A DNA stretch of 64,000 nucleotides from the NCBI GenBank assembly GCA_040755395.1, contig JBFMAX010000001.1, positions 248,001 to 312,000 of the forward strand, given 5' to 3'. Every line of letters begins with the position of its first letter. The stretch's first letter is position 1. The DNA comes from Nitrospirota bacterium (GTDB taxonomy: Bacteria; Nitrospirota; Nitrospiria; Nitrospirales; Nitrospiraceae). A program made the translations under genes and the position numbers. Below are positions 1 through 63,993 of this stretch, in pieces. Below the pieces are notes generated by a model. The model had not been told where the DNA came from, did not search any database, and saw only the letters and a program-made list of their open reading frames with translations.

Positions 1-589
1 GCCCGCGTTTCTTTCCGCCCTCCCCGCGCAATTTGTGGCAGTTGTAACATTCCTGAAGCTGCCACTGTTCGAAGCCGAGCTGTTCAAGCGCTTTGGCGTC
101 CATGGCGCCTCCGATCGACGCAGGAGTCGGCTTGACGGAATCAGGACCGACTCCCACCGCGACCTCCGGCACATCCTTGCTCAAGCTCTTCAGCCGCTCG
201 CTGATCGCCTTCGCCTGTTCCTCCAATACCTTGGCCCGTGCGATTAATTCTTCGGCTTTCCCTTGCTCGGTCTGTCTTCGCTTGGACTCGAGAATCTTGG
301 CGATTTTGCCTTTCTCATCCTCCGGGTCGTACTGCGGGAGAAAGGACGCGCCAGCGATATAGACGGCGGAGATCACGATATAAAAGACGACGAGAGCGGT
401 CACCGCTTTCGTCCCGCTGATAGGTTTCAGCGAGGGCGCGTCGAGCAGGATGAAGACGGCCGCGCCGAGCATCGCATAGGCGAAAAACATGGCCTGGAAC
501 ACCGGCGGAAACTCCAACGCCCTGGTTACGCCGACGAGAACGCCGCCGACGAGAATTCCGACGATCAGCTTCTTTATCACATTGGCCAT
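1..589 (-). CDS. membrane-anchored c-type cytochrome (3' end outside window)
   Basis: Reading frame open from an ATG at 589 to the window edge, so the C-terminus is missing. An AGGAA ribosome site lies just upstream. The visible 196 residues have three hydrophobic segments (about residues 4-20, 29-46 and 53-75), then a charged, probably helical linker (about 80-140), then a haem-binding CYNCH at residues 181-185. This fits an N-terminally anchored periplasmic cytochrome c whose haem domain continues beyond the edge. It starts 42 nt after the CydA-like gene and is probably co-transcribed with it, which suggests an electron-transfer role with that oxidase-like protein. The family cannot be narrowed without the missing part. 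Confidence 0.8.
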   Translation of the reverse strand, partial: MANVIKKLIVGILVGGVLVGVTRALEFPPVFQAMFFAYAMLGAAVFILLDAPSLKPISGTKAVTALVVFYIVISAVYIAGASFLPQYDPEDEKGKIAKILESKRRQTEQGKAEELIARAKVLEEQAKAISERLKSLSKDVPEVAVGVGPDSVKPTPASIGGAMDAKALEQLGFEQWQLQECYNCHKLRGEGGKKRG

Positions 590-631
590 AGAATTCCTCG
601 GCTCATACCATCAATCCGTGCGACGGCGGCG

Positions 632-2335
632 TCATTTCGCTCCCGCAGGAACCGGACTGCCTTCGGGCGCATGACTCTTGGCTTCGGCCGCGCGAAGCGT
701 GATGAAAATCGCAAAACTGACCACGATATAAAACACCAGCGTAATCGCCGTGATCCACCAGGCCGAGTAGGACAGCGTCGGGGTAAACGACTCGGCGGTG
801 AAATCCGGCACGAGATTGTAGGTATGGAAATACTTCCTGAGCAACGACCGCACGGCGCCCATCAATCCCATCGTCCAAATGGCGCTAAACGCCAGAAAGA
901 TCAAGACGAACTGGGACGCAAAATCGATTTTTCCCCAAACGATGGTTCCCTGTCGGATCGCACGGTTATAGATGACATAGTTGACGACCGTGACGAAGAC
1001 CAGCGTAAAGGCCGCGGAATTCTTGGCCGGCATCAGCGCCAGGAAGTTCCACTCCGACGGCAGCTCCAATTCCGCCACGAGCTTGGCGCCGGTCGGCACG
1101 AACCCGTGGGGAGTCATCCAGATGGCGTTTCCCACGACCACCATCAGGAACCCGATCTTGATCACCGTTCCGGAAGAAACCGTGAGCGGCACGAATTTTC
1201 CGAGCACAACCGGGAGCAATACCAAGGGCAACAGAATAGCCAGCGACATGGGATCGGGGGCCGGAAACTGGGTCCAGGCCCAGGTCATCACGAACGGCAA
1301 CGCGATCATCGCCAGCGGCGTCAGGACGGTCATCCTGACCCGCTCCACTCCCTCGATCCGCTTCATGCTCAGCCAAATGTAGTAGTTGCTGGCCAGGAAG
1401 ATCAATCCCACCATGGCGCCCTGCATCTCGAAGAACATGGAGAGCTGATCGGCCATCATGTACGGACAAATGGAGGCGTCGTAGTCGCACAGCTCGTACG
1501 CGAGCAGATAGCCCATGAACGGCAGGAACAACAGCGCGCCGACGCCGATCAGGTTGCCGACAAATCCCATCCAGTCGTAGTACGACCGTTCTTCCTCTTT
1601 CTTGGCGCCCATATACATGTAGGCGGCGATCAACCCGGCGATGAACCCGCCGAAGGTCACATTGCCGACCAGGCGGTGGAGATTCATCGGCATCCAACTG
1701 TAGTTGTAAACCTTGTCCCATAGGGTCGCGGTTTGCAGAAACTCGGCTGGCGACACGCCTTCCGCCTTGACCGGGGTATTCATGAACGAAGTCGGACCGT
1801 CGATGACGAACAGCGTGATTGTCCCGATCACGTTCAACAGCACCCCGAGGGCAATATGGCGAGCTTTTTTGTCTCCCTTCCAGGCATCCCAGGTGTAGAA
1901 ATACATGTAGAGCACGATGGTCTCCCCGATAAACAGCAACGGGTAGATCACCGCGAAGATCATGAAGAAGTGATTGATCAGCCACGCGGTGAACTGCGGA
2001 TAGGTGGCGAGCAAGACGAAGATGAACAGGCCGCCGCTCAAGGCCGTCATACTATAGAGGATGACGGTGACTTTCGTGACCTCTTTGGCGAGCCGGTCGT
2101 ATCGAGGGTCCTGCTTTCGATATCCCAACCACTCCGAGATCACCACGAAGATCGGAGCTCCGAGAATGAATCCCGCAAAGAGGATGTGGAGTTGGGCGAC
2201 GATCCACACCGCGGTTCGATTTCCCGTGTACGGGAATTCGACGCTGGGCGCGCTCGGCACCTGGGCATAGGCCGCGGTCCCGAACAGCGCGAACAGGGCC
2301 GTTACGGCCAAGAGACTGCGCTGCCACATTGTCAT
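632..2335 (-). CDS. cytochrome bd-type oxidase subunit I-like (CydA-like) membrane protein
   Basis: A 567-residue polytopic membrane protein with an N-terminal signal-like segment (about residues 1-24). Features resembling CydA are visible: 'QLHILFAGFILG' near the N-terminus (possible haem-b His), 'FIGETIVLYMYFY' (acidic helix residue), 'NLHRLVGN' (second His) and a Met in 'FEMQGAMVGLIF'. Start chosen at 2335 because GGGGAGA precedes it; an ATG six bases further in is an alternative. No cydB gene lies beside it. Instead it sits between two c-type cytochrome genes, as known for the bd-like oxidases of Nitrospira, which have been proposed as terminal oxidase. Whether it reduces oxygen and whether it takes electrons from cytochrome c or quinol is inference. 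Confidence 0.8.
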   Translation of the reverse strand: MTMWQRSLLAVTALFALFGTAAYAQVPSAPSVEFPYTGNRTAVWIVAQLHILFAGFILGAPIFVVISEWLGYRKQDPRYDRLAKEVTKVTVILYSMTALSGGLFIFVLLATYPQFTAWLINHFFMIFAVIYPLLFIGETIVLYMYFYTWDAWKGDKKARHIALGVLLNVIGTITLFVIDGPTSFMNTPVKAEGVSPAEFLQTATLWDKVYNYSWMPMNLHRLVGNVTFGGFIAGLIAAYMYMGAKKEEERSYYDWMGFVGNLIGVGALLFLPFMGYLLAYELCDYDASICPYMMADQLSMFFEMQGAMVGLIFLASNYYIWLSMKRIEGVERVRMTVLTPLAMIALPFVMTWAWTQFPAPDPMSLAILLPLVLLPVVLGKFVPLTVSSGTVIKIGFLMVVVGNAIWMTPHGFVPTGAKLVAELELPSEWNFLALMPAKNSAAFTLVFVTVVNYVIYNRAIRQGTIVWGKIDFASQFVLIFLAFSAIWTMGLMGAVRSLLRKYFHTYNLVPDFTAESFTPTLSYSAWWITAITLVFYIVVSFAIFITLRAAEAKSHAPEGSPVPAGAK

Positions 2336-2375
2336 GATGTCTCCCCGCCCCTCCTCTGCTCGGCCTAAATCAGAA

Positions 2376-2939
2376 TTATTTCCCCGCTCCTGCGGCTGCC
2401 GGGGCCGCCCCTTCTCCGCTCGAAGCGGGAGCCGCTGCGGCGGCCGGGGCCGCACTGCCGACCGGCACCCACGCGTTCTTCACCGGATCCCATTCCTGCC
2501 CTTTCAACCCGAAGGTCCGTTCGAAGGCCAATACCTTCCACCGATCTTCTTCCGAAAGCTTGGTTTTCCACGCTTTCATCTTGGTGTTGGGAACGCCTTC
2601 GGAAATCCGCCAGAACCAGACGGAATCAGAATACAGCTTCATCCGTTCGGCATTCCGGAAGTCGCGTGCGCCCGCCTTGACCGGCTTGCCATCCTTGCCG
2701 TGACAGCTTGCGCAGTTCACGTCCGGATTTTTCTCACCGATGAAGATCTGCCGTCCCTCTTCGATGATCTTGTCGTCCGCCCACCAGCCGGCCGGCATGT
2801 GCTTGTCGGCGTATTCGGCCGGAGCCGGCGGAGGCGGGACAATCGGCCCTTCGCCCCCTTCACCACACCCGACCACGGAGACAGCCATCCCGACTATTCC
2901 GACAAAGAGCGCCACACCTGTTACATTAGTTCGTTGCAT
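2376..2939 (-). CDS. lipoprotein monohaem cytochrome c
   Basis: 187 residues. The N-terminus is a hydrophobic signal ending in a lipobox (SVVGC, Cys25), so the mature protein should be lipid-anchored in the periplasm. A Pro-rich linker follows, then one haem motif CASCH at 76-80 inside a cytochrome c fold of about 85 residues with several downstream Met residues as possible axial ligands ('PNTKMKAWKT'). The C-terminal 35 residues are a low-complexity Ala/Pro/Gly tail. It ends 40 nt before the CydA-like gene and is likely its electron donor or a fused-function partner. AAAGGAG upstream of the ATG is somewhat distant (about 13 nt), so start confidence is moderate. Confidence 0.85.
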   Translation of the reverse strand: MQRTNVTGVALFVGIVGMAVSVVGCGEGGEGPIVPPPPAPAEYADKHMPAGWWADDKIIEEGRQIFIGEKNPDVNCASCHGKDGKPVKAGARDFRNAERMKLYSDSVWFWRISEGVPNTKMKAWKTKLSEEDRWKVLAFERTFGLKGQEWDPVKNAWVPVGSAAPAAAAAPASSGEGAAPAAAGAGK

Positions 2940-3145
2940 AGAGAATCACCCGCTCCTTTCTCCGTCGTTTCACGAACCGACCCTTTCCGGATAAAGCGCA
3001 TGAAAAAAGACGCTTTTACCCAGGCTTTTCAGCCTCAAGCAAAAGCGCCATCTCCTACGAGTACGTCGAGATCACGCAAGAGCACTTTCCCTCGCCTTGC
3101 TTCCGCGTCCGATCCGGCGAGGTACGAGAGCGCCCCACGGACCGC

Positions 3146-7154: not shown

Positions 7155-7964
7155 TCAGTTCCACAACCTTTTCCTTATGCGCCGCCACAGACCGGGGTGC
7201 GCGCCTTCGCATAACACCACGACGACAACGGTCGTGTTATCGTTCCCGCCCGCGGCGTTCGCCAATCTGATCAGCCGCTCAGCCAATGCCTCGGGATCAT
7301 TGCCGTAGCGAACGGCCCGCAAGACCTCGTCGGAAGCCACGCCGCTCGTGAGCCCGTCCGAGCACAGCAGCACGATGTCCCCGCTCATGACCGGCACCTC
7401 GCCCAATTCAACCTCGACCGTCGATTCCACGCCGAGCGCCCGAGTCAGGACATGCTTCTGAAACGATTGCTCCGCCTCTTCTTCGGTGAGGAGACCCTGA
7501 CGCACCTGGTCGCGTACGAGCGAATGGTCGGCCGTCAGTAACTGCATCGCGTCGCCCCGGATCAGATAGGCACGGCTGTCTCCGACATGGGCCACCGAGA
7601 GGACGCGGTCGGTGAGCAAGACGGAGACCGCGGTCGTGCCCATGCCGGCGTACTCCGGGCGCCGCCACGCTTCCCGGTGAATGGTCTGATTTGCGAGCCG
7701 AACGGCGCTGGCCAGCCGGTTCGTTTGCGGCAGGAAATTCGGATCGTACTCGCCGATGAAGGGAAGCTGTCCGTTACGGGTGGCGTCGGCGAGATGTCGA
7801 TGAATCACTTCGACGGCGATTCCGCTCGCCACTTCGCCGGCGTTGCAGCCGCCCATGCCGTCGCATACCAGATAGAGGCCGAGTTCCGGATCGGCGCAGA
7901 ATCGGTCCTCGTTATGGGACCGCCTCAAGCCGACGTCCGACTTCGCCGCATAGCTGCTCATCAT
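7155..7964 (-). CDS. PP2C-type Ser/Thr protein phosphatase
   Basis: 269 residues. PP2C family motifs with metal-binding aspartates are visible: 'SDVGLRRSHNEDRF', 'LVCDGMGGCNAGEVAS', 'VAHVGDSRAYLI', 'LLCSDGLTSGV' and the C-terminal 'GGNDNTTVVVV'. It should dephosphorylate Ser/Thr residues using two metal ions, in the cytoplasm. The start ATGATG at 7964 overlaps the stop of the kinase gene (ATGA), so the two are translationally coupled. A classical kinase/phosphatase pair with the FHA protein downstream. Confidence 0.92.
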   Translation of the reverse strand: MMSSYAAKSDVGLRRSHNEDRFCADPELGLYLVCDGMGGCNAGEVASGIAVEVIHRHLADATRNGQLPFIGEYDPNFLPQTNRLASAVRLANQTIHREAWRRPEYAGMGTTAVSVLLTDRVLSVAHVGDSRAYLIRGDAMQLLTADHSLVRDQVRQGLLTEEEAEQSFQKHVLTRALGVESTVEVELGEVPVMSGDIVLLCSDGLTSGVASDEVLRAVRYGNDPEALAERLIRLANAAGGNDNTTVVVVVLCEGAHPGLWRRIRKRLWN

Positions 7965-11237: not shown

Positions 11238-11282
11238 TGGAGGCGCCGGGCGGGTTCGAACCGCCGCATCGCAGTTTTGCAG
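11238..11282. repeat. attL: 45-bp copy of the tRNA-Cys 3' end
   Basis: Exact 45-base match to 18783-18827. It contains the CCA end, acceptor 3' strand, T arm and part of the anticodon arm of tRNA-Cys, but the 5' half of the tRNA is absent here, so this copy is not a tRNA gene. Confidence 0.9.
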
Positions 11283-17651: not shown

Positions 17652-18840
17652 GGATCGCGGCATCCTCCAGCGAAAGGGTCGTGACGGCTGGTGGGTCCGC
17701 CTCATTCACAATGGCCGGGAACGCTGGCATCGGTGCGATACCAAATCACAGGCGAAGGCCCTCTACGGCCGTTTGAAGGCAGAAATTCGGGAGGGAACGT
17801 ATTTCCCCGACAAGTTCAAGCCGAGCCAGGAGATCACGCTGCGAGCCTGGATCACCCGGTACAAGGACAGCATTACTTCGCCAGGGTTGCGGAACATGAA
17901 GCACTACGGCAAATTCTGGTCAAAGCTGCTAGGCCGCCGGCTGCTCACCGATCTGACCGGCGATGAGTTGCGCCACGTCCAGGCCCGGATGCTGGCCAAG
18001 CGCAAGCGCGCCCCGCAGACGATCACCCGTTACTTCGCCGGACTCCGGCGCATCCTGAACCTGGCTATTGCGGAAGGGAAGCTCGTCACGAACCCGGTCA
18101 AAGGCGTGAAGTTCTTTCGCGAGCCGCAGGGCCGTCTCCGGTTCTTATCCGATGGTGAGATCGCCCGGCTTCGGGAGGTCATGTCTCCCGAACACTGGCC
18201 GCTTGTGGCCTTTGCCCTGGAAACGGGCCTTCGGTTGAACGAGCAGTGCAAGGCCCGGTGGGATTGCGTGGACCTGGAGCGGGGTATTCTGACCATCCCC
18301 CTGAGCAAGTCCGGCCGGACCCGTCATGTCGTGCTGAGCGAGGCCACCATTGCCATCCTTCGGGGCCTCCCGTCATGGATGCACAGCGCCTACGTGTTCC
18401 CCAGCCCCCGTCATGGCGGAGAGCCGATGCAGGGCCGGCATTTCGTGGTGAAGGTCTATGAACCAGCCTTGGAGCAAGCGGGCATTGTAGGGGCAACCTG
18501 GCACACGCTGAGGCATACCTTTGCGTCACGGGCGGTCATGGCCGGGGTGGATATTCGGACGGTCCAGGAGCTGATGGGCTACTCCACGATCACCATGACC
18601 ATGCGGTACGCCCACCTCTCCCCGACTCACTTGCGGGAGGCCGTCAACAAGGCCAGCCTGGGGCAATCCATGGTGAAAAGTGCCAATGGAACCGTGACCA
18701 AAACCGTGACCAAACAGAATCAGCCGGTCACAGTTGAAAAGGAAGAAACGGCAGAAGCCTTTGAGGAACTTGCGGGAATAGGTGGAGGCGCCGGGCGGGT
18801 TCGAACCGCCGCATCGCAGTTTTGCAGACTGCTCCCTTAG
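17632..18840 (+). CDS. int: site-specific tyrosine recombinase (integrase)
   Basis: 402 residues, GGAG before the ATG. An N-terminal arm-binding region (about 10-60), a core-binding domain (65-160) and a catalytic domain with R201 ('ETGLRLNE'), K226, H291-x2-R294-H295 ('WHTLRHTFASR') and nucleophile Y326 ('MRYAHLSP') are intact. The last 20 codons lie within the att core and tRNA-Cys: the stop TAG is inside the tRNA gene. After excision the frame would instead run on into the left end of the element (see findings). It catalyses insertion into and excision from tRNA-Cys. Confidence 0.95.
   Translation: MARKDGKDRGILQRKGRDGWWVRLIHNGRERWHRCDTKSQAKALYGRLKAEIREGTYFPDKFKPSQEITLRAWITRYKDSITSPGLRNMKHYGKFWSKLLGRRLLTDLTGDELRHVQARMLAKRKRAPQTITRYFAGLRRILNLAIAEGKLVTNPVKGVKFFREPQGRLRFLSDGEIARLREVMSPEHWPLVAFALETGLRLNEQCKARWDCVDLERGILTIPLSKSGRTRHVVLSEATIAILRGLPSWMHSAYVFPSPRHGGEPMQGRHFVVKVYEPALEQAGIVGATWHTLRHTFASRAVMAGVDIRTVQELMGYSTITMTMRYAHLSPTHLREAVNKASLGQSMVKSANGTVTKTVTKQNQPVTVEKEETAEAFEELAGIGGGAGRVRTAASQFCRLLP
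18691..18715 (+). promoter_or_regulatory. candidate integrase arm-type sites (right, two tandem copies)
   Basis: ACCGTGACCAAAA at 18691-18703 and ACCGTGACCAAAC at 18703-18715, inside the integrase gene (coding TVTKTVTK), 68-92 bp from the att core. The same word occurs at 11426 next to attL. Confidence 0.4.
18783..18827. repeat. attR: 45-bp core shared with attL, inside tRNA-Cys
   Basis: Identical to 11238-11282; sequences diverge immediately on both sides. It overlaps the 3' 45 bases of the intact tRNA-Cys and the end of int. Confidence 0.92.
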
Positions 18841-18858
18841 CCACTTGGGTACGGCGCC
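18783..18858 (-). tRNA. tRNA-Cys (GCA)
   Basis: 76 bases including encoded CCA. Acceptor stem GGCGCCG pairs with CGGCGCC, the anticodon stem GCAGT/ACTGC encloses the loop CTGCAAA (anticodon GCA), and the T arm GGCGGTTCGAACCCGCC is standard. The intact copy is at the right end of the integrative element, rebuilt from the element's att core plus the chromosomal 5' part. Confidence 0.95.
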
Positions 18859-49864: not shown

Positions 49865-51236
<1,372 letters not shown>

Positions 51237-51373
51237 GAGCGGGCCGGGAGGCTCTTTCCGCTCTTGGCCAGAGCGGCGTTGACCGCTCTACGCTTCGCCT
51301 CCACTTGGCTGCGGAACTTGTTCAATTCCAGCCACGCTGAATTGAACGTCGAACAGTCCTCGCCACCCGCAAC

Positions 51374-51470
51374 AGCGGGCCGTTTCGGCTCAGCAAGCGC
51401 GGTGCCCCAACGCCGCTCTGATGCCCGCTCCAAGAGCCTCCCGGCCGCGCTTGAGCAGTCGGGAAAAAGA
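51374..51470. repeat. degenerate dispersed repeat, copy 1
   Basis: Shares the order AGCGGnCC...TCAGCAAG-GCGGTG-CCAACG-CGCTCTGAT...GCTTnA with 54917-55012, with many substitutions. Recognised by eye only. Confidence 0.5.
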
Positions 51471-51624
51471 GCCTGTCGAGGGGAAACAGTGCTCGCCGTC
51501 GCGAAGCGCGACCGCATGTGCTCGGCAAGCGCGGGACCCGAGCCTCCGCGATTCGCGACACAGCTTACCCCATCCCGCCACACATCCCAGGGAAAAGCCA
51601 CGCAGCTAGAGGGAGAGGGGAATC

Positions 51625-51655
51625 AAAAAGGCCACCGCTCATGGGTGGCCTTTTT
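51625..51655 (+). terminator. strong bidirectional-type terminator
   Basis: AAAAAGGCCACC and GGTGGCCTTTTT form a perfect stem around a six-base loop, with T run on both strands. About 390 bases after ahcY; it may end ahcY or the converging minus-strand gene at 51822. Confidence 0.85.
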
Positions 51656-51821
51656 GTATACGAATACGTTGGCTGACCTTTTTGAGCCTCTTAAGGTAAG
51701 CACCCTGTCTAGAGAAAGAGCAGTGACCCCCGCTGATCGTCTCTGCATGTGTTACCGCATTCTGTCGAATCATGCCGCCCCACTTACAGTAGTCTTCCCG
51801 CTCAACGTCCGGTGCCGACGG

Positions 51822-52379
51822 CTATAAGGGTGGCAGAGAAATACTCGGAGGGCTTGGAAGAAACGGCCTTAGCGCGAGGAAGGCTAATATTGCTAAGAGA
51901 TTCACCCAGATTGGGGCTGTATAGTCGAGGGCATCGAGCCAGATCCAGAACCAAACCATAGGCGGATACTTACCCCCTCCGCTAACTCCGATGCAACCAT
52001 AGTCTTGGGTAAGTCGGTTAACCACGCTCACCTGATCTTCCATACCTGGAACGTATCGGCTCGCGATTTCTCTGATCTCTGGGCTGTGGCTACCAGGTGG
52101 AATCGGCATAGGGCCGAACGCTCCCACCTCAAGCAGACGGCGCGCCTTCCATGGCGTCAGGGATTTAACGAGAGCGTGATAGGCATACCTCGCAGCCCCA
52201 TATAAACAGACTAGGACCAGTCCCCATTCGACAACCGCTGGGCGGGTCAGCTTTAGATTGACACCTAAAAAAGGGACCTGCGCGTACTCTCCGAACGTGG
52301 CACCTGCAAGGCTGTAAACCCATAGAACCATCCCCAGTGTGAGCGCAAAACGGCGAAGCCTCAGAAGCTCGTTGTCCAT
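51822..52379 (-). CDS. hypothetical membrane protein
   Basis: 185 residues, at least three membrane helices (about 12-32, 50-72 and 155-175), lower GC than the core. Central soluble loop with a Pro/Gly-rich part ('GAFGPMPIPPGSHSPEIRE'). No family recognised, no ribosome site before the ATG. Its 5' side abuts a coding-like frame without a start (52380-52764), so it may be the second gene, or frame-shifted second half, of a truncated unit. Confidence 0.5.
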   Translation of the reverse strand: MDNELLRLRRFALTLGMVLWVYSLAGATFGEYAQVPFLGVNLKLTRPAVVEWGLVLVCLYGAARYAYHALVKSLTPWKARRLLEVGAFGPMPIPPGSHSPEIREIASRYVPGMEDQVSVVNRLTQDYGCIGVSGGGKYPPMVWFWIWLDALDYTAPIWVNLLAILAFLALRPFLPSPPSISLPPL

Positions 52380-52764
52380 CACAATGGTAGTGGGCGATCA
52401 ATGTTTCCCCGGGATGGATATTACCCCTTAGTACCAATTCCGCGCTTTTATTCGAGGAGTCGGTCTTGTATTTCTCACGAAGCTCCTCGTATTGTGCTTG
52501 AATTAGCTCGTTTACACGCTCTCGTATCGTATGCTCAAAAATAGATATTAACCAGTTTGAGCTGAGGCCCGAACAAAGAGTTGCCGGGAACTGCTCTTGC
52601 GGAAGCCTACCACAGTAAGGCCGGTCGATGAAGAGAGCAAAGGTGCAGGAACTATTCCCCTGAACCTTTTTGCTGTGCTGATGGCGCTGGAGGATCGGAT
52701 CGCCTGCACCACGGCGCGTCCACTGATTTAGCTGCCTTCCCGCCTCTGCTATAATCCCGGTCCA
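52380..52764 (-). pseudogene. 5'-truncated remnant gene without start codon
   Basis: An open frame of about 128 codons, coding-like in its middle ('FALFIDRPYCGRLPQEQF', 'FEHTIRERVNELIQAQYEEL', 'AELVLRGNIHPGETLIAHYH'), but with no ATG, GTG or TTG before 52437. Its upstream side runs into the duplicated VOC segment at 52715, which suggests that the beginning was lost when that duplication arose. Confidence 0.4.
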
Positions 52765-52920
52765 CTATGAAGCCGCGAATTACGATGATCACCTTGGGCG
52801 TAGATGATTTGGAGCGATCGCTCAAGTTTTATCGCGATGGGTTGGGATTTCCGACGGAGGGGATCGTTGGGACGGAGTTTGAGCATGGCGCGGTGGCGTT
52901 TTTCGATCTGCAGCCGGGAT
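52715..52920. repeat. 206-bp direct repeat, copy 1
   Basis: Matches 53716-53921 with two mismatches. It contains the promoter and first 51 codons of a VOC-family gene and ends inside the gene. Confidence 0.95.
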
Positions 52921-52943
52921 GGGGGCTGGCGCGAGCAATGTAA
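52767..52943 (+). pseudogene. truncated VOC-family gene (5' part only)
   Basis: 58 codons; the first 51 equal the start of the intact gene at 53768 (one substitution, Ile to Met), then unrelated sequence and a stop. Carries its own TATAAT, so it may still be transcribed. Confidence 0.85.
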
Positions 52944-53086
52944 CACTTGATTTGGCCGATCGAGAGCGACGGCTGCCCCGCATGCTCCACCCTCGCACAG
53001 TTGCACCCCACATCCGCCGCACTCCCCCTGCTTCTGCGCTGGAGTAGGCTCTGGCCCCCCGCGTAGGTTTTGTATATACTTAATCC

Positions 53087-53377
53087 GTGTTCGAATGGGA
53101 CCCGCTGAAGGCTGCCGCCAATCTTGCCAAGCACGGCGTCTCATTTGAAGAAGCCACGACGGCGTTTCAAGATGCCAGAGCTCTTGATGGTCCCGACATC
53201 GAACATTCCACTTCAGAGGCGCGCAGGCTTCATCTTGGCCTGTCCATGTCAGGCAGGCTCCTGGTGGTTGCCTATACCGTGAGGAGATACGACGATGAAC
53301 AAGAGGCGATTCGGATCATCAGCGCGAGGCGCGCGAGTCGGAAAGAGAGACGCCGTTATCAAACGGCGCAGGATTGA
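53087..53377 (+). CDS. brnT: BrnT-type ribonuclease toxin
   Basis: 96 residues from a GTG. BrnT pattern: 'FEWDPLKAAANLAKHGVSFE' at the N-terminus, 'RRLHLGLSMSGRLLVVAYTV' and 'EAIRIISARRASRKERRRYQ' at the C-terminus; BrnT folds like RelE and cuts RNA. A TATACT lies only six bases before the start, so the message could be leaderless. The antitoxin gene follows with an 83-base overlap. Confidence 0.92.
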   Translation: MFEWDPLKAAANLAKHGVSFEEATTAFQDARALDGPDIEHSTSEARRLHLGLSMSGRLLVVAYTVRRYDDEQEAIRIISARRASRKERRRYQTAQD

Positions 53378-53594
53378 TTTCTCCGACATCCCGGAGATGT
53401 CCGATGCCCAATTGCGTGCCATGCGGCGAGTGGGCCGCCCGAGGCTTGGCGAGGTGGCACGGCAACTGATCGCGATCCGCATTGATCCCCAAGTGTTGGA
53501 AGATCTTCGGAAGGAAGCCAAGCGGCGGGATATCGGCTATCAAACGCTGATCAACAACATCCTGGCGGAGCACGCCAAAAAGAAAACGGCGTAG
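53295..53594 (+). CDS. brnA: BrnA-type antitoxin
   Basis: 99 residues. Ribbon-helix-helix DNA-binding end: 'RQLIAIRIDPQVLEDLRKEA' and 'RRDIGYQTLINNILAEHAKK', as in BrnA. The overlap with brnT is longer than usual (83 bases); an internal ATG at 53398 (MSDAQLRAM) would remove the overlap and give 65 residues. Neutralises BrnT and represses the operon. Confidence 0.9.
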   Translation: MNKRRFGSSARGARVGKRDAVIKRRRIDFSDIPEMSDAQLRAMRRVGRPRLGEVARQLIAIRIDPQVLEDLRKEAKRRDIGYQTLINNILAEHAKKKTA

Positions 53595-53715
53595 CGGGAC
53601 AGAACAAGTAACATTACCGGCCGATGGCCACGGCCGGGCGGGTTCACCCGCTTGGTTCTGAAGCCACAGGCCATAGGCTTCCAGCGAGCCACTTTCCGCG
53701 GAGCCGCCACCCTCC

Positions 53716-53921
53716 CGCGTCCACTGATTTAGCTGCCTTCCCGCCTCTGCTATAATCCCGGTCCACTATGAAGCCGCGAATTACGATCATCACCTTGGGC
53801 GTAGATGATTTGGAGCGATCGCTCAAGTTTTATCGCGATGGGTTGGGATTTCCGACGGAGGGGATCGTTGGGACGGAGTTTGAGCATGGCGCGGTGGCGT
53901 TTTTCGATTTGCAGCCGGGAT
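53716..53921. repeat. 206-bp direct repeat, copy 2
   Basis: Start of the intact VOC gene with its promoter. See copy 1 at 52715. Confidence 0.95.
53751..53756 (+). promoter_or_regulatory. -10 box TATAAT 11 bases before the VOC gene
   Basis: Perfect TATAAT ending 11 bases before the ATG, with no Shine-Dalgarno between, so the mRNA is probably leaderless. An identical copy is at 52750-52755. Confidence 0.55.
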
Positions 53922-54190
53922 TGATGCTGGCCATTTGGCCTCGCAAGGATATCGCCCATGACGCGAACCTCCCCCTGACGCCTCGCAGCCCGACCGAGTT
54001 TACGATCGGCCACAATGTCGGCAGCCAGGAAGAAGTGGATGCAGTCATGGCGCAGGCGGAACGAGCGGGCGCCAAGCTCGTCAAACCTGCCGGCAGAACA
54101 TTCTGGGGAGGCTACGCCGGATATTTCCAGGACCCCGACGGGCATGTGTGGGAGATCGCCTGGAATCCACGCATGCCAATAGCGGATTAG
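53768..54190 (+). CDS. VOC (glyoxalase/bleomycin-resistance fold) family protein
   Basis: 140 residues. Two beta-alpha-beta-beta-beta units: 'RITIITLGVDDLERSLKFYR', 'GAVAFFDLQPGLMLAIW' and 'GGYAGYFQDPDGHVWEIAWN' are typical of VOC proteins with a possible metal site (His/Glu). Substrate unknown. The first third is duplicated 1 kb upstream around the brnTA module. Confidence 0.9.
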   Translation: MKPRITIITLGVDDLERSLKFYRDGLGFPTEGIVGTEFEHGAVAFFDLQPGLMLAIWPRKDIAHDANLPLTPRSPTEFTIGHNVGSQEEVDAVMAQAERAGAKLVKPAGRTFWGGYAGYFQDPDGHVWEIAWNPRMPIAD

Positions 54191-54258
54191 GAAGAGAAGA
54201 ATGTACCAAGAGTCCTTTCTCACCCGAATACGGCGACCTCGGCCGATCGCCGGAGAAT

Positions 54259-54843
54259 ATGATGCTGCGCCGATCCATGGCGGGCCTCTGCGTTTTGACT
54301 TTCCTCGCGTGGCCGGTCTCTGGTCTGACCCCGGCTGCTCCTGTAGCTGCGGAGGTCGCTGAGCCGACGGCCGGGCAGTGGTCGGGCGGAGCGGGGCTTG
54401 GCTTTTTAGGCCGCACGCCGGATGGAGTTCTGGAGTTCGGGCTCAACGGGCACGCCGATTACTTCGTCATCAACCACGTCTCGCTCGGCCCGTTGGTCCA
54501 GTATGCCGGCGTGGGGAACGACATGATCTTTGGTTTGTCCGCGCAGGCCAAGTACTGGTGGGACATCCCCGGCAGCCACAGGGCGCGGCTCGCGGTGCAG
54601 AGCGGAGTCGGCTTCATCCGAGCCGGGATCAAAGACGCCGACAGCGGCGTGACCGACACCTATACTTCGTTCCTGATTCCACTCGGGATCGGGCTCGACT
54701 ACGCCCTATCCCAGCGGTTCGCCGTCACGGCCGACGTCCTCCTCAACGTCACTTCTCTCGGGCAAACCCTGCGCGCTGGAGGACGCGACGTCGATCTCCA
54801 CACGAATCTCATGCCGGGCCTGTACCTGGGAGTGAGGTTCTAA
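54259..54843 (+). CDS. small outer-membrane beta-barrel protein
   Basis: 194 residues. Signal peptide (about 1-35, cleavage near 'VAA-EVAEP'). Alternating strands with aromatic girdles ('VLEFGLNGHADYFVINHVSL', 'FGLSAQAKYWWDI', 'IGLDYALSQRFAVTADVLLN') and a C-terminal 'HTNLMPGLYLGVRF' ending in Phe, the outer-membrane signal. Eight-strand porin-like fold. GGAG three to six bases before ATGATG. Confidence 0.8.
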   Translation: MMLRRSMAGLCVLTFLAWPVSGLTPAAPVAAEVAEPTAGQWSGGAGLGFLGRTPDGVLEFGLNGHADYFVINHVSLGPLVQYAGVGNDMIFGLSAQAKYWWDIPGSHRARLAVQSGVGFIRAGIKDADSGVTDTYTSFLIPLGIGLDYALSQRFAVTADVLLNVTSLGQTLRAGGRDVDLHTNLMPGLYLGVRF

Positions 54844-54916
54844 GGGAACAGAAGGGAAGAGAAGAGAAGATGTAGCGGGAGTCTTTTCTCACCCCATCAA
54901 ATTCTTCAACGCTCAG

Positions 54917-55012
54917 AGCGGCCCACCCCGGTTCAGCAAGAGCGGTGACCAACGTCGCTCTGATAGCTGATCCCAAAGTGTCCCTGCCTTGCTTAACGGG
55001 TACGCGGGCAAG
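54917..55012. repeat. degenerate dispersed repeat, copy 2
   Basis: See 51374-51470. Confidence 0.5.
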
Positions 55013-55023
55013 AAACACGCGCC

Positions 55024-55317
55024 TTAAGCCAGTGATTCCATGATCTTCCGATAGTCCGCCTCGGGATAGGCCTTGAGCGTGGTCGTCCGGACATTGCCGG
55101 CCGAGCCGGTCTTGAGCAGGAACTTGGCCGCCGCTTCATCGTTGGGCACCTCGAAGATCAGTACCGCATCGAAAGCTCCCTGGGTCATGTAAAAGCTCTT
55201 CACCTCGCCTCCCAACTTCTGCAGCTCTTTTTTCGCCGCGTCGAGGCGCTTGGGCGAATCCTTCACCGTTCGAATCCCCTGATCCGTCCAGTTGATGAGT
55301 GTCACGAAGGCCGGCAT
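55024..55317 (-). CDS. GYD-domain protein
   Basis: 97 residues with GAGGAGGT five bases before the ATG. Typical GYD pattern: 'FVTLINWTDQGIRTVKDSPK', 'LGGEVKSFYMTQGAFDAVLI' and 'TTTLKAYPEADYRKIM'. Ferredoxin-like fold, function unknown. Confidence 0.9.
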   Translation of the reverse strand: MPAFVTLINWTDQGIRTVKDSPKRLDAAKKELQKLGGEVKSFYMTQGAFDAVLIFEVPNDEAAAKFLLKTGSAGNVRTTTLKAYPEADYRKIMESLA

Positions 55318-55627
55318 GACGCACCTCCTCTTCCCTCGGAAAGGACCCCGGTTGGTTGTCAATGATCGTGGCGCGGGCGTTCGATGGTATACGTGCCGGA
55401 GCGAGAAAAAGGCTAGGCTTCCTGTGGGGGCGTGTCAAGAGTGGGGAGTGAGGCTGAGCGGGGCCTGTCGCCGACCAGCCTGCTCGACCTCGGACAAGAA
55501 CATGGAGACCTTCAGAATGTTGTAAACCGCCCGCCGGCGGCGACGGCTCGCCCGCACGATCCCGCGCTCGCCCGGTCGCTGATTCTGGAGGAGCTGTTTG
55601 CTCTGTTGCTCTATCAAGTGTTCCGGG
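55318..55627. other. gap without a supported gene
   Basis: 310 bases between the divergently ended GYD gene and the broken nucleotidyltransferase. Open frames exist on both strands, one with an Arg-rich stretch, but none has a ribosome site. Possibly decayed coding sequence. Confidence 0.35.
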
Positions 55628-56176
55628 TTAGGAAAGAGAGGCGAGGAGCGTGGTGCATTCCTCGGCCAGGCCCAAGGCTTCGGCCTGGGTCGCCAAGCTC
55701 TCCCGTTCGACGGCGCTTGGCTGGCGAACCGTGACAATGTCCAGAGCATCCTGGAGGTCCACCGGCCTCCCTGCATAAAGCTTCAAGAGCACCAGCGCCT
55801 GCCAATTCACCACCGGAACCGGTCAGTCCAGAACGGAAACGATGTCCACGCGTCTGAAGACGATATCAGCCCATTTCGGTTCGAACACGATTAACTGGAC
55901 AGGAACGACGTGTTCGCCGACAGAAACCTCAATCCGGAACACACCGCTCAACGGATCGTCAGGATCGCCTGGACGATATCCGGCGTTCAGGTCGGCGGCA
56001 AGCATAGCGGGATCGGCGGCGCCGAGAGCCACCGCCAGGTCAATGTCGTGTGTGGCTCTGGGCTTTCCCCAGACCGCGACGGCGAATCCGCCGACCAGCG
56101 CGTAGGACTGCACGAGCTTCCGCTCTCGCGCCTGGTCGAGGCGTCGCGTGATCTCGATCAGTGCTTCGCGGAACAC
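55628..56176 (-). pseudogene. nucleotidyltransferase (AbiEii/MNT-like) with in-frame stop
   Basis: 183 codons from a GTG at 56176. The first 117 residues show the NTase core ('SYALVGGFAVAVWGKPRATH' followed by DIDL). A TGA at 55823-55825 interrupts the frame, after which the same frame continues with the expected C-terminal part ('NWQALVLLKLYAGRPVDLQD'). No frameshift is needed. Either a nonsense mutation, a sequencing error or two separate fragments. The upstream 61-residue gene overlaps by 19 bases and is the usual partner. Confidence 0.75.
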
Positions 56177-56343
56177 GTGCGCTTCAACTCGAAGCAGAAG
56201 TCGGAAAGTTCGAGGGCCAGCAGGAGCCGCTCCTCGGGAGTCATCCGCCGAGCCGCTTCGATCTTCTGGCCGGCGAGCCACCCGCTGAGTCGGCTGTGCC
56301 GCCTCCGGCGCGTAAGGGTGGGGAGAAAGAACCGGCGATTCAT
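56158..56343 (-). CDS. small partner protein of the nucleotidyltransferase
   Basis: 61 residues, basic N-terminus then helix 'RRMTPEERLLLALELSDFCF'. The pattern resembles short proteins encoded before minimal nucleotidyltransferase genes, possibly antitoxins. Overlaps the broken NTase gene. No strong ribosome site. Confidence 0.6.
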   Translation of the reverse strand: MNRRFFLPTLTRRRRHSRLSGWLAGQKIEAARRMTPEERLLLALELSDFCFELKRTCSAKH

Positions 56344-56521
56344 GGCCGGGATTATACACAGATTACGATAGGAAATGGAAAATGAGTGGAGCGGTGAGAT
56401 GGGGCCCGGCATGAGTAATTGAATCTGCCCATTTGAGATATTGCTAATTTGGCAGCAAGAATCGGATGGTGCGCGTCACTGTATCAGAGGTAGGATGACT
56501 GTGCCGGGCGAGGGTGACGAG

Positions 56522-57328
56522 ATGAACGACCGACTGTTGCCGGTGAGTCCAGACCGTGCGTGGGAAGCGGTTCTGACGCGCGATCGCCGGTTCGATGGCG
56601 CGTTCGTGTAATGGGTCGGGCTTTCTCCGAAAGCGTATCGAGATATGCGGAGAATGGAGCGTTTCAAAACATCGTTGAAGCGAGGTGAGACCGTGACGAA
56701 TGCCATCTACGAGGCGAACTTTGGTTCGAGCGGCCGCCTGTATGAACGCGTGAATTCGGACCTGGGCATGACACCCTCGGTGTTGCAGTCAGGTGGAGCC
56801 GGGGTGACCCTTCGCTTTGCAACGGCTCCGACTCCCGCCGGCCGGATGTTGGTGGCGATCACGGAGCGGGGCATCGCGACCGTTCGACTCGGGAATACGG
56901 ACGCTTCATTGATCGCGTCGCTTCAACGAGATTAGCCGAGGGCCATCCTCCGCCGAGATCCGTTCGGATCGAAGCCGTATGTGGATGGAATCTTCCACCG
57001 TCTCAGTGGAACAGGCCAAGCTCATCGGCTCCCGTTCGACCTCCACGCGACCGCATTTCAACGGCGGGTGTGGAAAGCCCTCCAACGGATCCCATACGGA
57101 CAGACTCGTTCCTATCGTGAAATCGCGCGAGCGATCGGGCAGCCGGCTGCAGCCCGGGCTGTCGGCAAGGCTTGTGCGGCCAATCCCGTCGCGGTCGCCA
57201 TTCCTTGCCATCGGGTTATTCGGGAAGATGGACGGCTCGGCGGCTATCGGTGGGGCCTTCAGCGAAAGAAACGGCTCCTCGCCCTCGAACAGGAATCGGC
57301 AGGCCCGGTGCGCAGGAATTCTTCGTGA
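56522..57328 (+). pseudogene. ada: broken ada (methylated-DNA repair) gene
   Basis: One frame of 269 codons with two internal stops: TAA at 56609 and TAG at 56933. The start matches Ada ('AWEAVLTRDRRFDGAFV'), but the zinc-binding methyl-phosphotriester domain and most of the AraC helix-turn-helix are missing; text resumes with 'WVGLSPKAYRDMRRMERFKT'. The C-terminal methyltransferase domain is complete with the acceptor motif PCHRV. From the GTG at 56981 a 115-residue fragment of the catalytic domain could still be translated. No frameshift is present. Confidence 0.85.
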
Positions 57329-60522: not shown

Positions 60523-60603
60523 GAAACTCTAGCGTAGAAGCGGCGGAGACCGGGGAATCAGTCGCGCAGGGAGATAGCAAAAAGCGCGAAAGATAGGACA
60601 GTC
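60523..60603. repeat. 81-bp element upstream of the first small-gene cluster
   Basis: 68 of 81 bases equal 63913-63993 without gaps. It lies about 100 bases upstream of the minus-strand gene at 60419, as the other copy does for 63751. Confidence 0.8.
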
Positions 60604-63912: not shown

Positions 63913-63993
63913 GAAACTCTGGCGGAGAAGCGACGGAGACCGGGGAATCGATCGCGCTGGGAAGGATCAGGAAGCGCGAAGGATAGGACAGTC
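63913..63993. repeat. 81-bp element upstream of the second small-gene cluster
   Basis: Second copy of the element at 60523-60603 (84 per cent identity, no gaps). Confidence 0.8.

Follow-up and report, generated by a model that had tools for sequence, protein, structure and literature searches.

The window analysed here is a 64,000-nucleotide stretch (C1:248001-312000) of a Nitrospirota genome of 4.11 Mb in 74 contigs; its genus is represented by this genome alone. Within the window, genes for ResB, S-adenosylmethionine synthetase (MAT) and SAHase are followed by a direct repeat of the start of a VOC (glyoxalase-superfamily) gene, whose product has its closest named relatives in Nitrospirae metagenome genomes. 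The repeat copies at 52715-52920 and 53716-53921 align over 206 bases with two mismatches (52787 G / 53788 C; 52908 C / 53909 T), and the 795 bp that separate them (52921-53715) carry a predicted brnT-brnA toxin–antitoxin (TA) pair. Direct alignment thus confirms this arrangement, which an earlier note had described. BLAST lengthens the repeat to 216 bases (97.7%, E 1e-101); the extra 10 bases hold three mismatches and the hexamer GCTGGC, which is common to the end of copy 1 and the VOC gene and is a candidate for short homology at the joint. The features are collected in Table 1.

Table 1. Features of the VOC/brnTA locus in the window, followed by TA pairs between direct repeats in the same genome and in relative G168
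Feature	Position	Strand	Evidence or repeat
ORF for a hypothetical 186-aa protein, located between SAHase and copy 1	51822..52382	-	No Pfam match
Upstream flank of copy 1 (U1), like the VOC upstream of G011	52677..52714	+	Score 36, reached by 0/1000 shuffles; ungapped extension of the G011 match
Copy 1 of the repeat (R): putative VOC promoter region and 5' end, truncated	52715..52930	+	Alignment, BLAST
Conserved promoter-like block GATTTAGCTG..TCTGCTATAAT	52725..52755 in copy 1; again 53726-53756	+	Pattern search
Truncated VOC ORF, 58 aa and stop	52767..52943	+	Stop codon 52941-52943
Weak match to the dispersed element, left of brnTA	52961..52988	+	nhmmer E 1, not significant
brnTA upstream TTTTGTATATACTTAATCC, putative operator/promoter	53067..53087	+	21/21 bases identical in G001; aligned in G014 and G001
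brnT toxin, 96 aa, GTG start	53087..53377	+	PF04365 E 1.7e-25; PDB 7vd7 'toxin' E 1.3e-16
brnA antitoxin, 99 aa if started at the ATG inside brnT	53295..53594	+	PF14384 E 4.5e-10
brnTA 3' flank (U2), putative remnant of the relatives' dispersed intergenic element	53603..53715	+	Profile and shuffle comparison
Copy 2 of R, continuing into the intact VOC gene	53716..53931	+	Alignment, BLAST
Intact VOC (glyoxalase-superfamily) gene, 140 aa	53768..54190	+	PF00903 E 1e-20; PDB 3bqx E 7.5e-24
brnTA at VOC 5' end (case 1 of 4)	52715/53716 of the window		
Ppx/GppA gene (ppx), 3' end: HicA (E 2e-7) with PHD_like (E 5e-19)	C8:31285/32505		145 bp, 91%
purQ-like gene (GATase_5 E 1.5e-43), 3' end: ParE-type (E 7e-17), preceded by a 62-aa ORF	C8:50056/50701		95 bp, 94.7%
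Predicted DUF433 and DUF5615 pair; host gene itself a remnant	C3:166679/167530		79 bp, 98.7%
G168: vapBC at SAHase 3' end; second 3' end about 1 kb downstream			178 aligned columns, 77%
G168: ParE-type at purQ 3' end			99 bp, 93.9%

The VOC-start repeat is the longest of the four direct-repeat pairs (at least 40 bp, at least 75% identity) in the window, and the DNA between SAHase and copy 1 (51822-52714) has a GC content of 52.9% vs 60.6% for the window. Elsewhere in the window, an exact 45-bp direct repeat lies at 11238-11282 and 18783-18827, its second copy in a tRNA-Cys gene (18783-18858, minus strand); the pair looks as though it marked both ends of a 7.5-kb element that had integrated there.

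Whilst copy 2 leads into an intact VOC gene, copy 1 was read in the earlier note as a truncated VOC pseudogene with a promoter. The truncation stands, the ORF ending after 58 codons. The promoter depends on a putative extended -10, TGCTATAAT, read by eye, and on the conservation of the promoter-like block at VOC in relatives, the pattern of which is present in 7 of 10 genomes searched and absent from the reversed control; a sigma-70 consensus scan of 52400-54300 listed no promoter-like site. Since a terminator scan listed no terminator-like site on the plus strand from the copy 1 stop to brnT, a putative promoter in copy 1 could read into brnTA. The three extra mismatches at the copy 1 end occur in none of 16 relatives, as expected if a truncated copy decays. 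The same promoter-like block also precedes a cation-efflux-like gene in G001 and G015 and a lipoprotein-like gene in G168 (L083, L084, L085), all named by eye. Horizontal transfer of the VOC gene itself was considered and set aside, there being nothing unusual in its identity to those of the nearest relatives (about 77-83%, vs 77-83% for MAT/SAHase).

The proteins of the enclosed pair belong to both families of the BrnTA type II system (BrnT PF04365, BrnA PF14384), with the toxin gene first as in that system. BrnT scores 89.5 bits against PF04365 (cut-off 34.5) and the adjacent BrnA 40.2 bits against PF14384 (cut-off 26.1), although BrnA reaches 20.9 bits with NCBIfam NF047399, below its cut-off of 60. 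What differs from the known system is that, with the ATG at 53295, brnA would overlap brnT by 83 bases; the pair is a prediction. The spacer has matches in 77 of 175 family genomes, the closest in G014 (85% over 53022-53678) and G001; in G014, a single contig carries both brnTA and VOC, separated by 14 kb. One G001 contig (C28, L034) carries a VapBC-like pair and two brnTA pairs inside 6.5 kb. Searches for a vector gave a single BrnT relative with 49% identity among viral contigs and, among plasmid records, 63 matches, none of which covered more than 80% of the query; the best 5 of the 63 were VOC genes.

The earlier note had suggested a search for similar duplications at other brnTA loci. The outcome was negative: across 17 distinct brnT loci in relatives, with flanks of 0.3-3 kb, no repeat of this kind surrounds the genes, and three have some direct repeat across them (20 bp; 26 bp; 104 bp at 76% plus 26 bp). 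We therefore rejected the idea that brnTA itself carries the duplication. The earlier reading that this was not IS-type transposition held, as the spacer contains no transposase gene and, of the 14 inverted-repeat pairs listed for 50000-57000, not one places its arms at both spacer ends. Like IS elements and composite transposons, the pair lies between direct repeats; unlike them, it has neither transposase nor terminal inverted repeats, and the duplication is 206 bp rather than a few bases.

In G013 and G167, from other genera and neither of them among the genomes with spacer matches, the order ResB-MAT-SAHase-VOC is kept and the VOC gene has a single start. The region of copy 1 has matches in 27 of the 175 family genomes (at most four candidates scored per genome), with two full-length matches only in the window's genome; second matches in G001 and G015 span 35-37 bases and correspond to the promoter block. 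A tandem VOC start without brnTA, which according to the earlier note would speak for an unrelated duplication, was returned from none of the 175 genomes. In G167 two genes, GmrSD_N (DUF262) and HEPN, separate SAHase from VOC, and G011 has a HigB-like toxin and an HTH gene directly upstream of VOC, so the SAHase-VOC interval, or the VOC gene, may attract such genes.

The two window copies have different upstream flanks, and each is like the VOC upstreams of different relatives. U1, taken as 37 bp above copy 1, is similar to the G011 upstream (Table 1) and shows no likeness to those of G014 and G167, where the scores are reached by 695/1000 and 943/1000 shuffles. U2, above copy 2, is like the VOC upstreams of G167 and G014 (0/1000 shuffles each) and more weakly that of G011 (3/1000). 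However, VOC upstreams of relatives include a dispersed intergenic element with the motifs GCCGATGGCGACGGA and CCATCAGCCATANNCTCTT (seen in G014:C131, L032; G001:C28, L034; G011:C229, L033). One element motif has 2 matches in the window's genome, whereas nine others have 11-44 apiece; the control gives 0-1 per strand. Because the best window match of the element profile is at 53603-53650 (E 0.004; best reversed-control match 0.32), the 3' flank probably arrived with brnTA; and because that flank appears to be the dispersed element, its resemblance to VOC upstreams may have nothing to do with position. Left of brnTA (Table 1) and at the copy 1 flank, which the profile did not find, evidence of the element is weak. 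A further dispersed repeat occurs in the window at 60523-60603 and 63913-63993 (84%, direct), and also in G014 C131 and G001 C7. Same-strand arrays of the element in G001 and G014, together with integrase matches, had prompted the idea that it was an integron attC. We dropped this, as the motifs are absent from L243, L244, L246, L247 and L249 (present in L245 and L248) and the element is located between ordinary genes.

To look for the same layout elsewhere, 910 kb of the window's genome were scanned in pieces (a non-random 22%; the window, C8, C4 and C5 had been chosen for other reasons), counting direct repeats of at least 70 bp and at least 90% identity with a gap of 300-3000. By reading, four of the six close repeat pairs enclose a TA pair, with different TA families at different host genes (Table 1). 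In the C3 case the DUF433 and DUF5615 genes, which we take to be a TA pair, include a toxin ORF that overlaps the second repeat copy by 5 bases. The remaining two are C1:83971/85582 (355 bp, 97.7%), which encloses a permease-like paralogue pair and was left uncounted as a TA case, and C3:11526/13696, in which a by-eye reading saw no TA. An automatic count gave 2 of 6, because adjacent TA matches were merged or overran the gap; random placement reaches 2 in 2/20000 trials. The chance that at least four of six random gaps hold a whole toxin gene is 5e-8 to 9e-6, assuming 40-150 TA loci per genome; the pieces scanned were not a random choice. Eight further pairs in this genome fall below 90% identity, outside the TA scan, and by reading one of them, in C4, encloses a MazEF-like pair.

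Two comparable cases were found in G168 (Table 1). At ppx, the window genome's own purQ, C3 and the G168 SAHase gene, the second copy begins within about 12 bases of the toxin stop. Samples of relatives gave no recognised TA case: G013 (200 kb) had no repeat pair, G131 (200 kb) five of at least 74% with one of at least 90%, and the large G168 contigs (350 kb) three, none of at least 90%. These samples, like the 17 other brnT loci, count against recurrence.

At several of these loci the copies were compared with relatives. In the window's genome, the intact purQ ends KKAKLQPKPAMAPG and the fragment KKTKGQRRTVVA; both are plausible PurQ C-termini with their own stop, both resemble PurQ ends of relatives, and most relatives are about as close to one copy (T1) as to the other (T2). 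In G036 the same antitoxin (51/62 residues) lies 17 bp past the purQ stop with no purQ fragment. At ppx, 12 of the 13 mismatches fall within the last 56 of 145 bases, with a cut point picked after seeing the data, as were those used in the window. The G168 SAHase remnant is nearest its congener G167 (84/98 bases; 75 with G013), and the intact end nearest G013 (85; 79 with G167), the profile being without a clean breakpoint. At purQ, G168 is alone among 29 relative loci examined in having a second 3' end: the copies share an 85-base core with one mismatch, an odd tail marks the intact copy, whereas the fragment keeps the usual C-terminus and is followed by a purL-like ORF. The window's genome and G168 have different ParE-type pairs at the same purQ end. 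Judged by these alignments, the copies of the genome's own purQ, ppx and the G168 SAHase gene look like gene ends from different lineages or alleles, and together with the G168 patterns they point to incoming gene ends with homology at one side.

At about even confidence, we take brnTA to have come in by a small insertion whose trace is a partial, direct duplicate of the VOC start, and the VOC/brnTA layout to be a recurrent way in which TA pairs settle by gene ends, here and in at least one relative. In brief, DNA with a TA pair beside a piece of a host gene would have recombined with the recipient; one joint would form by homology in the shared gene and the other by end joining or short homology, so that the recipient's own gene end stays behind as a partial copy. 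The intact copy would keep working, and the addictive TA pair would favour retention. The two copies, the TA pair between them, the relatives with one copy and the recurrence at other genes are observed; we infer the donor DNA, the homology at one side and the role of addiction from the end products. Homology-facilitated illegitimate recombination is described in PMC3240628; there it is a process, whilst here it is deduced from what would be its outcome. Evidence against this model comes from the window itself, where the copies are 204/206 identical and a second lineage is invisible.

The main alternative, possible if rather unlikely, is a true insertion with a long target duplication, in which the TA pair entered at two points of one target staggered by 206-216 bp (or in sister copies), so that the stretch between those points was duplicated. 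The earlier note had left the choice between insertion with a large target duplication and recombination capture, and that pair of options is supported by the lack of any tandem-only match in the search of 175 genomes and by other TA families being similarly flanked. In the window the two cannot be separated, because the copies are too alike (2/206). The near-identity of the copies, the abrupt end of copy 1 in non-VOC sequence and the confinement of the end differences to copy 1 all fit a staggered insertion, as does the G168 purQ locus, where the odd tail is on the intact copy rather than the fragment. There is also precedent: according to a review, the insertion of some restriction–modification (R-M) systems duplicates a long target stretch, variable in length and on the order of 100 bp (Nobusato et al. 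2000 Gene 259:99 and Furuta et al. 2010 NAR, cited in passages of PMC3874152 and PMC3031569). The target copies around the brnTA unit, at 206-216 bp, fall in that class's range of about 100 bp or more, and the likeness extends to an addictive pair without transposase between variable target copies. The differences are that type II TA modules of several families are involved here, and that the copies at the genome's own purQ, ppx and the G168 SAHase gene resemble two alleles or lineages, which argues against simple duplication of a target. In those same passages the pattern is given for R-M systems and not stated for TA modules. Our literature search found no TA report with flanking direct repeats and partial duplication, although subscription journals were mostly uncovered and novelty is not implied.

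One-sided recombination at a gene end remains our preferred reading over two further accounts. That the VOC start was duplicated earlier for an unrelated reason, with brnTA landing later or being a coincidental neighbour, seems quite improbable: repeat pairs without a recognised TA do exist (the tandem permease-like paralogues at C1:83971, and C3:11526), but no tandem start without brnTA was returned from the 175 family genomes searched, and TA pairs lie inside most of the close repeat pairs counted. Slimmer still is the prospect that a site-specific recombinase (integron or integrase) with gene ends as its targets moved brnTA as a gene cassette or mini-element. The same anatomy is found in elements that supply a gene 3' end of their own, and integron-integrase matches occur, in G014 once above cut-off and in C8 and C4 of the window's genome as partial pieces. 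The C4 stretch (G000:C4:1-8000, L247) has repeats of about 150 bp (82-84%) at 1106, 3066, 4545 and 7498 between small genes, a MazEF-like pair among them, beside a 150-base stretch (7719-7868) that matches the integron-integrase model, and looks like a decayed chromosomal integron. Yet the spacer has no integrase gene, the dispersed element did not turn up in the stretches examined near the integrase pieces of G014 and of the window's genome (L243, L244, L247), and the VOC case duplicates a 5' end; around brnTA the integron-integrase profile gave no match, the window's own matches (C1:266145-266621) being below cut-off and about 34 kb away.

An assembly or binning artefact is the slimmest prospect of all: the genome is in 74 contigs, and stretches of G142 C84 (L086, another genus) are letter-for-letter like G001 contigs (L034, L085), which suggests shared or misbinned contigs and that family bins may share sequence, but the copies differ at fixed positions, sequence like each flank occurs in other genomes, and the same layout was seen again at further loci and in one further genome.

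A doubtful extension of the preferred model is a mobility cycle free of transposase. Recombination between the two copies would free a circle of the TA pair and one gene end, which would re-enter the matching gene end of a different cell by a single crossover and so restore the structure; addiction would select for re-entry, and gene ends such as that of purQ would be recurrent docking sites. We think this whole sequence of events improbable.

Chromosomal TA pairs are widespread, usually without a transposase. If the reading given here is true, a TA pair between two copies of a host-gene end is a concrete and testable route of entry for them. The pattern would extend long target duplication from R-M systems to TA modules, and a simple repeat scan of the kind used here suits any genome.
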